This document shows, piece after piece, positions 4,730 through 14,991 of a stretch of 35,107 bases of DNA. Where the stretch lies: positions 1 through 35,107 of the IMG/VR virus record IMGVR_UViG_3300044568_000303. One strand, written 5' to 3'. Source of the stretch: a virus. Each line of letters opens with the position of its first letter. Within the stretch, counting starts at the first letter, position 1. Made by a program: the position numbers and the translations under genes. Under the pieces are notes generated by a model. The model did no database searches, was not told the DNA's origin, and saw only the letters and a program-made list of their open reading frames with translations.

Positions 4730-5487
4730 TTGACCCTCCCGTCAGCATATGCTTGCATGATCTCGTCACTTAAAGCATCGTATCGGTTCGGGTCTTGCAT
4801 CTTCAGCCGAATAAGGTCAGCCCTTCGGTAAACTCGTTTTCCAGATTCACCAGTACCCCCTACATCTACAGATGCGGCTTTGAGATTAGTCTTGCGTTGG
4901 GCTTCCCCTGCATCACTAGTCTGTTTAGCCTTAACACCCTTCAACTGCTTGTAGGTACTGAGCAGTTCGTTAGCACTGTCATAGTCATACTCACCATCAG
5001 CTTTAGCGTACAAACCAATGCGAATAGGAGAAGATTTCACCCAATTCACAAAGTCTGCATCCTGAGCAATCTGACCGAAATCAGGGTGTTCAGCCGCCAG
5101 CTTTTGCTGAATCTGCATCTTTTTAAACTCAAGAGCCGCTTGGCGACCCGCAAGTACATCAGGATGGTTATCAACAGTCTTACGAACAGCCGCCTGTGGA
5201 TTCTCGAAAAAATCTACTTCTGGCTCGTCCTCTTTAACAGGTTGAGACTTTCCCGCAAGGTTCTGCTTAATGAGTTCATCCGCTAATTTGCGTACTTCAC
5301 CCACTTCTTGAGCTTGCTTGCCAATCAGCTTTTCAGCCTCTTGGTGCATCTTGATAATGTCTGACAGTTCTTTACCCCGATACTTGTCGGGAATGTCATC
5401 ACTAACTTGCTCAACTGTGGAATGAAGTTTCTGCTTTTCAACGACTTCTAATTCACTTTGCAACTCGTCTGGGTTATCAATCAACAT
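4726..5487 (-). CDS. Capsid scaffolding protein
   Basis: A 253-aa acidic, helix-rich protein just before the coat gene. It has coiled-coil segments (EVVEKQKLHSTVEQV; IIKMHQEAEKLIGKQAQEV), a middle with FFENPQAAVRKTVDNHPDVL, and a basic C-terminus (YRRADLIRLKMQDPNRYDAL). This arrangement, with NP and HPD segments and a C-terminal coat-binding helix, is typical of podoviral scaffolds that direct procapsid assembly and are then released. Order and size support the call: portal, fibres, scaffold, coat. Confidence 0.78.
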   Translation of the reverse strand: MLIDNPDELQSELEVVEKQKLHSTVEQVSDDIPDKYRGKELSDIIKMHQEAEKLIGKQAQEVGEVRKLADELIKQNLAGKSQPVKEDEPEVDFFENPQAAVRKTVDNHPDVLAGRQAALEFKKMQIQQKLAAEHPDFGQIAQDADFVNWVKSSPIRIGLYAKADGEYDYDSANELLSTYKQLKGVKAKQTSDAGEAQRKTNLKAASVDVGGTGESGKRVYRRADLIRLKMQDPNRYDALSDEIMQAYADGRVK

Positions 5488-5543
5488 TGTTTTTTCCTTT
5501 TTCCTGCCACTTTTGGGTTCTAGGAGACACTACGGCGAAATGC

Positions 5544-5771
5544 TTATGTAGTGGTTTTGCGCTCTGCCGCTAACTTTTCACGGTGTTTATGGTCAAACTG
5601 CATATGTGCAGTTGGGAAATGACCTGACCACCCTTCCAATTTAACGCTAGGTGCGCTCATGATGCGACTGGCTGAACCACCGCACTCACACTGAACAGAT
5701 TGCGTCTCATAATTGCAATACCGTTCAATTTTGTGTCCATTTTCACAGACAAATTCATACATTCTTTTCAT
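5544..5771 (-). CDS. FmdB-like zinc-ribbon protein
   Basis: A 75-aa protein starting MKRMYEFVCENGHKIERYC and continuing VQCECGGSASRIMSAPSVKL. This is the FmdB-type regulatory zinc-ribbon layout: aromatic start, Cys near residue 9, then a Cys-x-Cys-Gly-Gly pair and the typical R-x-x-S-A-P end. Several phages place such proteins next to scaffold and coat genes. Their role is not known, though they may bind zinc to structure a minor head protein. The start may instead be the ATG at 5762. It overlaps the end of the 80-aa gene by 17 nt. Confidence 0.7.
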   Translation of the reverse strand: MKRMYEFVCENGHKIERYCNYETQSVQCECGGSASRIMSAPSVKLEGWSGHFPTAHMQFDHKHREKLAAERKTTT

Positions 5772-11432: not shown

Positions 11433-12689
11433 TTATATCCCTGAAATTACGTCAAGTGGCTCCCACTCATCTTCATCATCATCTTGGAAGTATGAGGTGA
11501 CAGCCAGTTGGTCAATGTACGATAGGGCATCAGGTAAATCGTCATGAACACCTTGGGAAGGAAACATCAAGAGTTGATCTTTGAATTCATCCCAATCTTC
11601 CTCGGAGTTCAGCACAATACGCCCATGCTCAAACCGTCCTTGAAGTGACCAAATGATACGGTCGGCTTTTTTGCGATTGCCGTGGGTCAAGTCAACTATG
11701 TGTGAATATACATTATTCTTCCGCATCAAGTCACTCAAATACGGCAAAACTGCGTTTTTTAACGCTCCACGCTCAATTCCTACAGAAAGTGGGCGGTATT
11801 CCCGCATCTTGAGCAAAATGGTGGCAGCAGTCTCCCTGATGTCCCATCGCCCAAAAACGATCTCTTTGACGAACCATTTACCCTCGTCTGTCACCTTGAC
11901 CACAGCAATGGCAGTCTGGTCTAGCCGCTTCTTGGAGTTAGCTGCTTGCTTGGCAACCTCCTCAAATCCCGCTAAGTCACAGGCAATGTAGTAGCTACCA
12001 TACTCAGGCTCAGTACCGTATTTCAGCCATTCTTCCTTGAAAACGTCAGAACCAGCATTGTCAAAGGAGGCCATATATTCGGTCTTGAATGCAAAACTGG
12101 ACAAGGTTTTCTTTGCATTTTCGATTTCTTCTGGATCAATTAGTTCATTATCGTAAGTTGTAAAAGACCAAGACTTATATTCATTATTTTCTGCCTTACC
12201 AAGTTGATAAAGATCAAAAAAATGATTTCGCCCCTTTGGTGTTCCTATGAACATGGCATCACCTTTTCTGTCTGACAGAGAGGCTCGGATAACTTGCTCC
12301 CATACAGATGGCTTCATATCTGCATACTCGTCAAGGACAACATATGACAAGCTGACACCACGAAGCGTATCTGGCCTATCTGCCCCACGAATATAGATAA
12401 CAGCACCGTTGATTAGGGTTATCTCTTGATTGTTGATGTGGCTTGATGCAATGACATCTTTCCCAAGATCGGTCAAAACATTCCAAATAATGACCCTAGC
12501 CTGTCCCTGTGTTGGCGCAACGTACATGACACCAGAACCCTTTGGACAAACCAAGCCTTTGAGAAGCAAGGTAACTGCTGCAAGTCTTGATTTTCCACAT
12601 CGTCTACCAGCACAAATCACTTTAAAGCGACTAGGGTCAACGATCACCTCTTGTTGCCATTTCAAAAGTTGAAAGTTAAGGTCTGTCAT
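11433..12689 (-). CDS. terL: Terminase large subunit
   Basis: A 418-aa packaging motor. The ATPase domain has Walker A AGRRCGKS (27-34), Walker B VVLDEYAD (117-124) and the coupling segment FIGTPKG. The C-terminal RNase H-like nuclease domain carries the acidic residues of IACDLAG, VGIERGA and HDDLPDALSY. The enzyme pumps DNA through the portal and cuts concatemers. It overlaps the end of the endonuclease VII-like gene by 14 nt, so that gene is wedged between the two terminase subunits. Length and motifs are complete. Confidence 0.93.
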   Translation of the reverse strand: MTDLNFQLLKWQQEVIVDPSRFKVICAGRRCGKSRLAAVTLLLKGLVCPKGSGVMYVAPTQGQARVIIWNVLTDLGKDVIASSHINNQEITLINGAVIYIRGADRPDTLRGVSLSYVVLDEYADMKPSVWEQVIRASLSDRKGDAMFIGTPKGRNHFFDLYQLGKAENNEYKSWSFTTYDNELIDPEEIENAKKTLSSFAFKTEYMASFDNAGSDVFKEEWLKYGTEPEYGSYYIACDLAGFEEVAKQAANSKKRLDQTAIAVVKVTDEGKWFVKEIVFGRWDIRETAATILLKMREYRPLSVGIERGALKNAVLPYLSDLMRKNNVYSHIVDLTHGNRKKADRIIWSLQGRFEHGRIVLNSEEDWDEFKDQLLMFPSQGVHDDLPDALSYIDQLAVTSYFQDDDEDEWEPLDVISGI

Positions 12690-13164
12690 TTTTTAAGTAC
12701 CTGATTGCATTCTCTAACTTTGAAATGTCATCGTGAAACTTACCAATAGCTGTATTGCATAAGTCACACAAAATCCCACGAACCGTATTTGTTTTATGGC
12801 AATGGTCAACTACCATTCTTGTTTTTGGTACTCCAGCTTCAGCCTTAACACCACAAATAGCACAACCACCGCCTTGCGAAGCAACCATAGCATCAAACAT
12901 TTCAGTGGTCAATCCATAGGTTGATTTCAAATGCCACCGCCTTTGACTTTGTTGATGTCTTGCTTTGTGTTCTGGGTCTGTTCTTAGTTTTATAGCTTGT
13001 TTGCTAAGTTTTGACCAACGAAACTCATCATTCTCGCCATACTTCTTTTTCTCCAAAATCCTCATGCACTCTTTACATCTAGGACGAACACCTTTAATTC
13101 CATTGCCTACAGGATAGTATTCTGAAAGCGGCTTTTCTTTTTTGCAGTGGGTACATTTTTTCAT
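12676..13164 (-). CDS. Endonuclease VII / HNH-type nuclease, free-standing
   Basis: A 162-aa protein. The N-terminal zinc-binding segment is CTHCKKEKPLSEYY with a following RPRCKECM. The C-terminal nuclease core has GGCAICGVKA, VVDHCHKTNTVRGILC and DLCNTAIGKFHDD, the recombination endonuclease VII fold with its Cys-x-x-Cys zinc pairs and D-H-C-H catalytic stretch. In phages such genes are often mobile homing-type nucleases, and insertion between the small and large terminase genes supports that here. A role in resolving branched packaging substrates is the alternative. Confidence 0.82.
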   Translation of the reverse strand: MKKCTHCKKEKPLSEYYPVGNGIKGVRPRCKECMRILEKKKYGENDEFRWSKLSKQAIKLRTDPEHKARHQQSQRRWHLKSTYGLTTEMFDAMVASQGGGCAICGVKAEAGVPKTRMVVDHCHKTNTVRGILCDLCNTAIGKFHDDISKLENAIRYLKNDRP

Positions 13165-13199: not shown

Positions 13200-13607
13200 C
13201 TATGATTTTGGCTCAACATCTTCAGCATCAACTGTATTGTCACCAATGGACACGCCACCAATACCTGAAATAGTTATGTTAACTGCCGATCTCTGTTTTC
13301 CTTCTTTTTCGAACAGGGAAACAGGGAGCATTCTGTCCATACAGAGTTTGATTGCTGCCATCTGAGCGGGGTGTTCGTCATTCATGGCAATCTCAACTGC
13401 CTTGTGGACAACATTAGAACCAGCACTGTTTATCAGGAGTTCTTTGAGTTCTTTGACTCTCTGAAGTTCAGTCTTGGGGAGTAGGGCAGGAGGACTATCG
13501 GCATAACGAGCCATAGTCATAGGTTTGGGAATAGCAACAGCTACAGGCTTTGGAGGACGGCCTCTAGGCTTTTTCAGTTTGTCAGGTAAAGCGTCAATTG
13601 CATTCAT
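13200..13607 (-). CDS. terS: Terminase small subunit (putative)
   Basis: A 135-aa basic protein and the first gene of the leftward late operon, upstream of the large terminase. It opens with MNAIDALPDKLKKPRGRPPK, whose PRGRPP core is an AT-hook DNA-binding motif. A helical middle follows (ELQRVKELKELLINSAGSN; VHKAVEIAMNDEHPAQMAAI, then KLCMDRMLPVS), resembling small terminases that oligomerise on pac or cos DNA. It ends in a beta-rich, acidic tail. The call rests on position and pattern. No strong Shine-Dalgarno site is visible before the ATG. Confidence 0.65.
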   Translation of the reverse strand: MNAIDALPDKLKKPRGRPPKPVAVAIPKPMTMARYADSPPALLPKTELQRVKELKELLINSAGSNVVHKAVEIAMNDEHPAQMAAIKLCMDRMLPVSLFEKEGKQRSAVNITISGIGGVSIGDNTVDAEDVEPKS

Positions 13608-13639
13608 CTTTTGTCCACAGGAGGGAAGTTAGCGATTAC

Positions 13640-13668
13640 TTTACATCAGAATAGGAATCTTGTATAGT
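13640..13668 (+). promoter_or_regulatory. Strong rightward sigma70-type promoter
   Basis: TTTACA at 13640-13645 and TATAGT at 13663-13668, separated by exactly 17 nt. Five of six bases match consensus in each hexamer. Transcription would begin near 13675, exactly where the structured leader begins, and drive the leader, the 74-aa gene and the downstream RNA-like element. Confidence 0.7.
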
Positions 13669-13676
13669 GGAGGCAA
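13648..13676 (-). promoter_or_regulatory. Possible leftward late promoter facing the terminase genes
   Basis: On the reverse strand TTGCCT (13676-13671) and TATTCT (13653-13648) are 17 nt apart, four of six matches each. It overlaps the stronger rightward promoter face to face, so the two would compete. It is the best candidate I can see for late transcription of the terminase-to-tail operon, but it is weak by sequence. Confidence 0.3.
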
Positions 13677-13769
13677 GTCTGATCGCACCAGACTAAAAGC
13701 CTTTTAGAAGTGGTACAGCCCTGAGGATTCTTGGGGGTGCGACTGTACTACTCCTAGAGGGCTTTTTTT
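13675..13769 (+). ncRNA. Structured leader / small RNA ending in a terminator-like hairpin
   Basis: After a small hairpin (AGTCT ... AGACT), positions 13695-13718 pair with 13743-13766 as a 24-position stem with a single A-C mismatch and a few G-U pairs, around a 24-nt loop rich in G. Seven T follow (13763-13769), as in an intrinsic terminator. The predicted transcript from the 13640 promoter would be about 95 nt. The ATG of the 74-aa gene comes immediately after the U-run, and the only Shine-Dalgarno-like bases (AGAGG, 13756-13760) are inside the 3' arm. It could be a small RNA, an attenuator, or a leader controlling that gene. Confidence 0.6.
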
Positions 13770-13994
13770 ATGGCTATTGAATTGACTCCAGAAGAACGAG
13801 CTAATCAGCGCAAGAAACAGGAGATGGCACAAGCACTTGAGACTTGGAAAAAGGGTTTAGCAGAGAAGATAGCGCAAGACACAATAACCAAGCGCAATGT
13901 CACCAATCCAAGGAAGATCAAGGCTTACAAGAAGGGTGCTAAACAAGAGGCAGGAAAGATTCTAAAAGCACTTGATAACGGCATGATCTTCTAG
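13770..13994 (+). CDS. 74-aa basic protein, first rightward gene of the control region
   Basis: It begins MAIELTPEERANQRKKQEMA and is helical and Lys-rich throughout (KGLAEKIAQDTITKRNVTNP, then IKAYKKGAKQEAGKILKALD). I do not recognise a family. The start codon directly follows the seven-T tract of the hairpin leader, so its expression would need read-through and opening of that hairpin. Its stop is followed after 4 nt by the multi-helix element at 13999. The charge and position suggest a nucleic-acid-binding early or control protein; that is inference. Confidence 0.55.
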   Translation: MAIELTPEERANQRKKQEMAQALETWKKGLAEKIAQDTITKRNVTNPRKIKAYKKGAKQEAGKILKALDNGMIF

Positions 13995-13998
13995 TACA

Positions 13999-14157
13999 GT
14001 GTCACCAAGGAGTGTCGGTTATGCTACCCGACTCAACAGAGGGCAATCCTGTAAACCCCTGTTATGACCGCTTGGAAGCTGGTGTGCCATCGTAGTGACT
14101 ACGCCGCACAGATAAACCAGAATAAGCCTAGAAGTAGGCTCTCCTTGTGGCAGACAC
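13999..14157 (+). ncRNA. Predicted multi-branched structured RNA element
   Basis: The ends close by a long stem: GTGTC (13999-14003) with GACAC (14153-14157), then CC-AAGGAG (14005-14012) with CTCCTTG-G (14141-14149), one bulge. Inside are four hairpins in series: 14014-14019 with 14026-14032; ACAG-GGG (14036-14043) with CCC-CTGT (14056-14062); CTGGT-GTGC (14079-14087) with GCAC-ACCAG (14106-14120), capped by CGTA/TACG; and AGCCTA/TAGGCT (14125-14140) with a 4-nt loop. Five helices around one junction is far more order than expected in spacer DNA. It resembles no RNA class I can name. The strand is assigned from the upstream promoter. Confidence 0.5.
14021..14095 (+). CDS. Possible 24-aa leader peptide inside the structured element
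   Basis: An ATG at 14021 has AAGGAG 8 nt upstream and opens a 24-codon frame (MLPDSTEGNPVNPCYDRLEA and four more residues). The Shine-Dalgarno bases are exactly those buried in the closing stem of the predicted RNA, so translation and folding would exclude each other. That may be accidental. No family is recognised and the coding evidence is weak. Confidence 0.2.
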   Translation: MLPDSTEGNPVNPCYDRLEAGVPS

Positions 14158-14682
14158 CCAATCAGCTTTCTGCTAAACAAAAAATTACCTATATCACCTA
14201 TCGGGTAGCCGCCTTGCGCCCCAATGAAACTTAAAGACACACCTTACTGATTACCCTTTTCTTCCAGCCAAGGTAGGCTTGTTTTGTCAAACAGTCTGAT
14301 TTAGCTTTTCGAGTGGGAGCGGGGCTACATCAATATTCTCTCTACTCACCCACCCCCTCCCCCCCCATAGTAAGTACTCACTCACACTAGGCGAAGTAAG
14401 CACTAACTAACATGGAGTGTTTCATAATGTGAAACTGCAAGATAGTGCGGATGGCATGAGAGGGCTATGCAGCATCATGCACACACTAAGAATACGAATC
14501 GTTCTCATCTACATAAAACTATCAGGTTAGGTTTTTCAATAGGTTATTTATATGGGCCAGGTTGGTGCAGAGTGATTACTAACAACACCAAGATAGTGCA
14601 GCATTTCACCATGCAAAACGACTTGCACCACATTGGTTCTTCCACATTATGAAATTCTATATAAATCAATGGGTTATACTGT
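14158..14682. other. Noncoding control region with repeats (origin candidate)
   Basis: About 520 nt with no convincing gene on either strand. It holds TGTCAAACA (14285-14293), a C-tract (14349-14366), the inverted repeat TTTCATAATGTG (14420-14431) with CACATTATGAAA (14643-14654), an 11-bp direct repeat CAAGATAGTGC (14438-14448 and 14589-14599), two TGCAGCAT-containing segments and an A/T-rich stretch (14650-14680) just before an early promoter. Such a set fits a replication origin or a regulatory hub, but nothing here proves either. Confidence 0.4.
14349..14366. repeat. C-rich homopolymeric tract
   Basis: CCC-A-CCCCC-T-CCCCCCCC on the plus strand, so runs of three, five and eight G on the minus strand. 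It could form a G-quadruplex or i-motif-like structure and is prone to slippage in replication and sequencing. Confidence 0.7.
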
Positions 14683-14711
14683 TTGACAATATGGCATGAT
14701 ACGTGCATAGT
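14683..14711 (+). promoter_or_regulatory. Early rightward promoter of operon I
   Basis: A perfect TTGACA (14683-14688), then 17 nt, then CATAGT (14706-14711). The -35 lies inside TGTTTGACA (14680-14688), the same 9-mer seen in the palindrome at 19909-19925, so a shared regulator could cover it. It drives the small-gene operon starting at 14752. Confidence 0.65.
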
Positions 14712-14751
14712 GTTTAGAGTCCAAAGTCGGACTACTTTGAGAGGCGTTGAT

Positions 14752-14991
14752 ATGAAACACTTAATTTGCTATGCATACCCTACTTCAGACCTTGCAAACA
14801 AGGTTGGAAAACATGGTTATGTTGTCAACGATACATACCAATTCGATGAGTATTCAGATGCATTGGCATTTGCTCAAACATTAGGCACAGACCCTGACAG
14901 ATGGTCAATAGACCATCCTGCAAACTCTACATTCTTGCAAGATGCACAACGACTGAAAGCCTACCATTCAAGAAACAAGGTGACAACATGA
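14752..14991 (+). CDS. 79-aa early protein of unknown function
   Basis: The start is chosen at the ATG at 14752, which has GAGAGG about 8 nt upstream; earlier in-frame codons lie within the promoter. The protein (MKHLICYAYPTSDLANKVGK, then DEYSDALAFAQTLGTDPDRW) is a mixed alpha/beta small protein with no family I recognise. It is the first gene of early operon I and overlaps the next gene by ATGA. Confidence 0.6.
   Translation: MKHLICYAYPTSDLANKVGKHGYVVNDTYQFDEYSDALAFAQTLGTDPDRWSIDHPANSTFLQDAQRLKAYHSRNKVTT

Follow-up and report, generated by a model that had tools for sequence, protein, structure and literature searches.

A structured noncoding RNA beside the terminase genes of uncultivated freshwater phages, one of several alternatives in an exchangeable slot

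What does a stretch of 159 nucleotides without a convincing gene do between the terminase genes and the early genes of a phage? The stretch (13999-14157) lies in a 35,107-base IMG/VR virus record, analysed over its full length and called the window here, which derives from a phage of lakes and rivers. Terminase and structural genes extend leftward from about 13,600 and early genes rightward from 14,752, and the slot between them is flanked by a promoter divergent from terS on one side and an origin-like region on the other. An earlier note had described the stretch as a multi-branched RNA closed by a 13-bp outer stem. The folded RNA is real, while the edges and the outer stem assigned to it are wrong: the 159 nt make up the greater part of a noncoding RNA, here called type A, that is about 230 nt long. 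The slot is laid out as follows.

13640-13668, + strand: sigma70-like promoter of the slot (TTTACA-17-TATAGT), conserved upstream of RNA types A, B, C and D
13676-13769, + strand: structured leader RNA with a hairpin (13676-13681/13689-13694) and a long hairpin ending in U7
13683-13688 with 13737-13742, + strand: loop-bulge pseudoknot of the leader, 100% paired in 56 distinct sequences
13770-13994, + strand: p74, a basic protein of 74 aa, present in 60/61 type A loci
13972-14000, + strand: promoter-like TTGATA-17-TACAGT in the 3' end of p74, expected RNA start near 14007
About 14007-14235, + strand: type A noncoding RNA, its 5' start placed from the promoter-like site and its 3' end from conservation
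14223-14232, + strand: invariant 3' block AATGAAACTT, from the homologue alignment
14300-14366, strand unspecified: conserved C-tract element, the right border of the slot, also found in relatives without types A-D
14370-14412, strand unspecified: repeats GTAAGNACTNACTNAC, which probably belong to an origin or operator region

Homologous loci were gathered by scanning with terL, which gave at least 80 loci, and with p74, which gave 20. The element lies downstream of p74 in 19 of these 20; the contig of the twentieth, L101, stops at p74, and L087 and L093 stop within the element. A type A pattern scan of IMG/VR found 40 contigs besides the window, and the alignment used below (A1) holds 26 distinct type A sequences. 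With a looser pattern 74 stretches were obtained, the known 40 and 34 more, and a wider family was dropped when model R1 gave the 34 no support beyond the pattern itself; the best R1 match in that search, 19.1 bits, was located elsewhere in L324. Over 81 sources R1 scored convincingly on the window alone, so that by this model type A is not recognisable as either of the alternative types B or C described below. The phages carrying the slot are a clade of uncultivated freshwater phages: no cultured relatives were found by DNA, and the best terL matches were below 60% identity.

The element is devoid of a conserved gene, as had been proposed, since the homologue alignment contains indels and the longest stop-free stretch varies from 33 to 59 aa on the + strand and from 40 to 74 aa on the − strand. 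It does begin 4 nt 3' of the p74 stop codon. The type A RNA is conserved better than the neighbouring p74 gene, with identities of 80.6-83.6% against 60.6-68.7% for p74 DNA in L086, L097, L120 and L123, and of 91.2% against 76.0% in L085. The RNA is larger than 13999-14157, and its invariant blocks continue to 14232.

The folding energy of 13999-14157 is −52.8 kcal/mol against −42.9 for shuffled controls (z −2.51; 1/200 shuffles as good), and the extended range 13999-14236 gives z −2.76. Although the minus strand folds better still (z −3.46), the + strand is taken as the RNA because of conserved G-U pairs. The description as a multi-branched structured RNA was right, with the following helices.

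13999-14003 with 14236-14240, + strand: P0, doubtful outermost helix, which covaries
14012-14016, + strand: P1 5' strand, 100% paired in 26 sequences (outermost pair GC in 24, AU in 1, GU in 1)
14153-14157, + strand: P1 3' strand, partner of 14012-14016 in the same 26 sequences
14023-14031, + strand: pseudoknot 5' strand GCTACCCGA, pairing with 14201-14209, 9/9 pairs invariant in 26 sequences
14201-14209, + strand: pseudoknot 3' strand TCGGGTAGC, partner of 14023-14031 and outside 13999-14157
14035-14063, + strand: P3 hairpin with a conserved 12-nt loop (closing pair AU in 16, CG in 4, GC in 3, GU in 3)
14079-14120, + strand: P4 hairpin, two pairs compensated GC/AU in 11 sequences each
14126-14139, + strand: P5 hairpin GCCTA-GAAG-TAGGC, invariant

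In the model 97.9% of cells are paired over the 26 sequences. Two-sided changes occur in 8 of 40 pairs against 4.6 in shuffles (1/500), and covariation scores 0.129, compared with 0.044 in shuffles (0/500); further pair types number 12, which is not above shuffles (10.9; 159/500). Four of the eight two-sided pairs belong to P0, which is doubtful and may be spurious because its 5' strand overlaps the −10 box of the promoter-like site and changes by lineage. Three internal hairpins proposed earlier, now P3, P4 and P5, exist; P3 and P4 covary while P5, like P2, is without variation, and in P4 four to five rows are unpaired at three of four pairs and the distal part is absent in several lineages. 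Compensatory change was thus found in P1, P3 and P4 among the 26 distinct homologues, but not in the 13-bp outer stem, which is broken in relatives: pairing holds in 80.8% of cells for one half and in 74.4% for the other, and two-sided changes are absent. One strand of it, 14153-14157, pairs instead with 14012-14016 in P1. Nor is there a conserved ribosome-binding site buried in that stem, as the AAGGAG thought to be sequestered reads AATGGG, AATGAG or AAGGGA in relatives. The 9-bp pseudoknot shows no variation in 26 sequences, so covariation carries no information on its pairing; RNAalifold, which is unable to draw crossing helices, likewise predicts 14023-14031 to pair with 14201-14209, though at the expense of P1.

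The motif TTGANN-17-TANNNT is present within the p74 end in 26/26 distinct homologues, 9-11 nt upstream of P1 in 22 and 28-29 nt in four, and occurs nine times in 70,214 window positions (both strands). Judged by sequence, this argues strongly for a promoter, yet not independently, because the −35 box is dictated in part by conserved Leu/Phe-Asp codons of p74. The earlier note had instead placed the element on a transcript from the promoter at 13640. That promoter site is kept in relatives and scores 10/12, in a scan whose yield of 4 promoter-like sites is below the 5.9 that chance would give; a terminator-like hairpin intervenes, however, and the element has the promoter-like site of its own, so that a transcript from 13640 would account for the RNA only in part. 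In L014 a stretch just upstream of the slot promoter (5480-5587) matches the Rfam tRNA model over 108 nt, longer than a normal tRNA, at 44.2 bits.

The intervening hairpin is part of the leader, which folds with z −6.25. Its pseudoknot joins a hairpin loop to a bulge in the long hairpin, the terminator-like one. The two strands occur in six different six-letter combinations, and 5/6 pairs have two-sided changes, in 62 cells where shuffling gives 12.4 (0/200). The U7 lies just 5' of the p74 ATG, and a stable hairpin followed by a U-run is the form of an intrinsic terminator or attenuator; in a simple terminator scan confined to short loops the leader hairpin was not among the sites. The leader adjoins the start of p74 or of the HNH gene of type C, and the strict leader pattern was found in 54/62 A, 37/54 C, 0/128 B and 0/9 D loci, some of which end early. 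For a new family of attenuators the leader is a promising candidate.

A regulator acting in cis on the early operon, be it a riboswitch, an attenuator or a processive antiterminator, might be suspected from these data, since early genes follow the RNA on the same strand and the leader resembles an attenuator for p74 or the HNH gene. The next gene, however, begins about 500 nt further on and has a promoter-like site to itself at 14683, and the slot holds several unrelated-looking types, with none recognised in some relatives; we consider this explanation improbable. A riboswitch proper, which would sit in the leader of the gene it controls and include an expression platform, was rejected on the same distance and promoter-like site. 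The earlier wording "riboswitch, ribozyme or regulatory RNA" is supported in part only: a free-standing accessory RNA fits better than a riboswitch in cis with the distance, the separate promoter-like site, the exchange of cassettes among near-identical phages and the absence of any recognised type from others. Palindromic TTTCATAATGTGAAA-like sites, which look like operators, are scattered over 14420-14660 ahead of the promoter-like site at 14683.

In relatives the slot contains type A with p74, type B with no gene, type C with an HNH endonuclease, or type D, a candidate RNA. Among 344 loci and the window, some of the loci being the same contig, 253 carried one of these (62 A, 128 B, 54 C and 9 D) and none carried two types. 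Type B comprises at least 120 stretches without an accompanying gene. Its hairpins mostly begin 8-9 nt downstream of a −10-like box (TATAGT in 54/77), and a pseudoknot from loop to 3' end is fully paired in 109 sequences; its two-sided cells number 46 where shuffling gives 17.3 (0/200), and all come from one of five pairs. Type C, with 49 stretches located 3' of the HNH gene, has a fold of 54 RNAalifold pairs, nine with two-sided changes, and in 23/25 of its upstream regions no site with at least 8/12 promoter matches was found. In A, B and C alike, pairing is possible between the loop of a 5' hairpin and sequence close to the 3' end, with covariation support in B only, and a 5' stretch is common to A and C (AAAGGGATGTCGG in L122 and C, judged by eye). 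A short B-like RNA in L065 (reverse strand, about 2550-2760 of the reverse complement) has an apparently compensated pseudoknot, CATCC/GGATG, again by eye. No bacterial genome matched the B and C patterns. RNAs A-C, and likewise the leader pseudoknot, make strong candidates for RNA families that would be new.

Type D is a cassette of about 400 nt identical in eight contigs (L337-L344) in which the sequence upstream of the promoter differs, and this contrast suggests a very recent spread. Such identity in different backgrounds, the many swaps described below and the HNH gene in 53/54 C loci (and 1/128 B loci) would also be expected of a selfish mobile cassette, in which the C-linked HNH would home to the slot, with the RNAs as cargo or as the catalytic part of intron-like elements. 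Homing by this HNH could at least be an alternative mover of the cassettes. A, B and D have no linked endonuclease, however, the slot lies between genes and interrupts none, and no Rfam intron family was matched at E≤5 in the window region (13400-14760) or at E≤1 in a sample of six B and C loci, making the selfish cassette unlikely as an explanation for the slot. A group I or II intron or a ribozyme was rejected on the same intergenic position and lack of an Rfam match. The window also has an Endonuclease VII/HNH gene between terS and terL (12676-13164), which looks like a separate insertion because it is matched in few loci (5/61 A, 5/128 B, 3/54 C).

To what extent the types follow the phage backbone was assessed on a quick terL tree, in which 56/130 inner branches have support below 80. 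Its 133 rows comprise 21 of type A, 56 of B, 21 of C, one of D and 34 with none recognised. Type A requires 18 changes against 19.9 shuffled (as low in 37/500) and type C 19 against 19.9 (139/500), and the starred branches alone force eight changes each for A and C. Type B requires 30 against 42.9 (0/500), and the rows with none recognised cluster (7 against 30.5; 0/500). L082 (A) and L192 (B) are sisters on this tree. These counts indicate that the types switch repeatedly along terL.

The right border behaves differently from the types. Among 286 loci bearing terS, 219 have the C-tract (89 of type B, 52 of A, 41 of C and 37 with another or no type), and 44 of the 67 without a visible C-tract have a short contig there. 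Over 93 rows the C-tract flank follows terL distance with a slope of 0.92. A type mismatch adds 0.009 to the flank distance, a small effect reached in 0/500 permutations, and a weak co-adaptation of type and flank is possible. Since the types switch repeatedly while the flank tracks terL, the RNA looks like an exchangeable accessory rather than a fixed partner of packaging or origin.

Both of those partnerships deserve consideration. An RNA that controls or primes replication at the adjacent C-tract and repeat region, as plasmid RNAs do, would suit the adjoining origin-like region, the DnaA-box-like TTATCCACA repeats downstream of the C-tract in L024, a locus whose slot holds a short hairpin with a U-run, and the predicted small helical hairpin of p74. 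On the other hand TTATCCACA has no match in the window, p74 has no significant Foldseek fold match, 34/133 rows have no recognised type, and the flank tracks the backbone rather than the type, so that an origin-linked role appears rather unlikely. A role in packaging together with the adjacent terminase, on the model of phi29 pRNA, would suit the observation that terS and terL are nearly always next to the RNA where the locus extends that far; relatives with similar terminases nevertheless lack a recognised type (the same 34 rows) and the types do not track terL, which leaves this role very improbable indeed.

The partner protein of type A gives few further clues. p74 is predicted to form a two-helix hairpin (AF2 pLDDT 79.7) and had no match in Pfam, PHROG or PADLOC. 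A truncated HNH was ruled out (hhalign probability 1.3%), and a Rop-like protein was without fold support in Foldseek.

We tentatively favour, with rather less than even confidence, an accessory factor acting in trans: type A would be a free-standing, pseudoknotted RNA some 230 nt in length, and one among no fewer than four alternatives for the slot. RNA A would be made early from the promoter-like site at the p74 end, fold into a particle closed by the pseudoknot, possibly bind the basic p74, and act in trans as a type-specific factor. Loci for immunity, exclusion and counter-defence show this kind of pattern, with alternative types often exchanged among near-identical phages. By this analogy a function of that family is favoured here, again with rather less than even confidence; the most likely role, suggested by the swapping pattern only, would be the blunting of host defence or the exclusion of rival phages, and it would explain the frequent type swaps. 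One may speculate further, more doubtfully, that a near-constant promoter with exchangeable, sequence-unrelated but equivalent RNAs, with or without partner proteins, forms a dedicated landing slot for weapons against defence or rivals. If true, the slot would be the RNA counterpart of the swappable anti-CRISPR and moron loci. Most large phage RNAs are without known function, and near-identical phages that differ in the RNA carried, or have no recognised one, provide a natural comparison by which the role of such ornate RNAs becomes directly testable.

The earlier note could not match the RNA to a known class, and this has held: Rfam gave no match at E≤5 in 13400-14760, Rfam 15 gave none at gathering score over the whole window, GOLLD and ROOL models included, and the six sampled B and C loci gave two weak matches only, both under gathering score. 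In open-licence papers no report of the type A RNA or of the slot was found. HEARO, the omega RNA of IscB, is a structured RNA adjoining an HNH-domain gene, a likeness shared by type C only; the C RNA, however, lies downstream of a plain HNH without Rfam match, and A, B and D have no linked HNH. An omega RNA of IscB or TnpB was rejected, as p74 matches nothing and the 151-aa type C protein, with plain HNH models as best matches, is without the RuvC part. In ColE1, RNA II is a structured RNA upstream of the origin, accompanied by the small helical-hairpin protein Rop. The type A RNA, upstream of an origin-like region and beside p74, resembles this arrangement, but some relatives have no recognised type and p74 lacks a significant fold match. 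The cabRNA of staphylococcal phages, as outlined in PMC10686824, is likewise a structured phage RNA of the terminase region and meets a bacterial immune sensor; it derives from the terminase genes themselves, whereas the RNA here is intergenic with its own promoter-like site. The nearest kind is that of GOLLD and ROOL, classes included in Rfam and described in PMC12286853 as large structured phage-borne RNAs of unknown function. They measure about 660-800 nt or more and often lie near tRNA islands, whereas the type A RNA, at about 230 nt, sits next to the terminase genes in a slot where RNAs are swapped.
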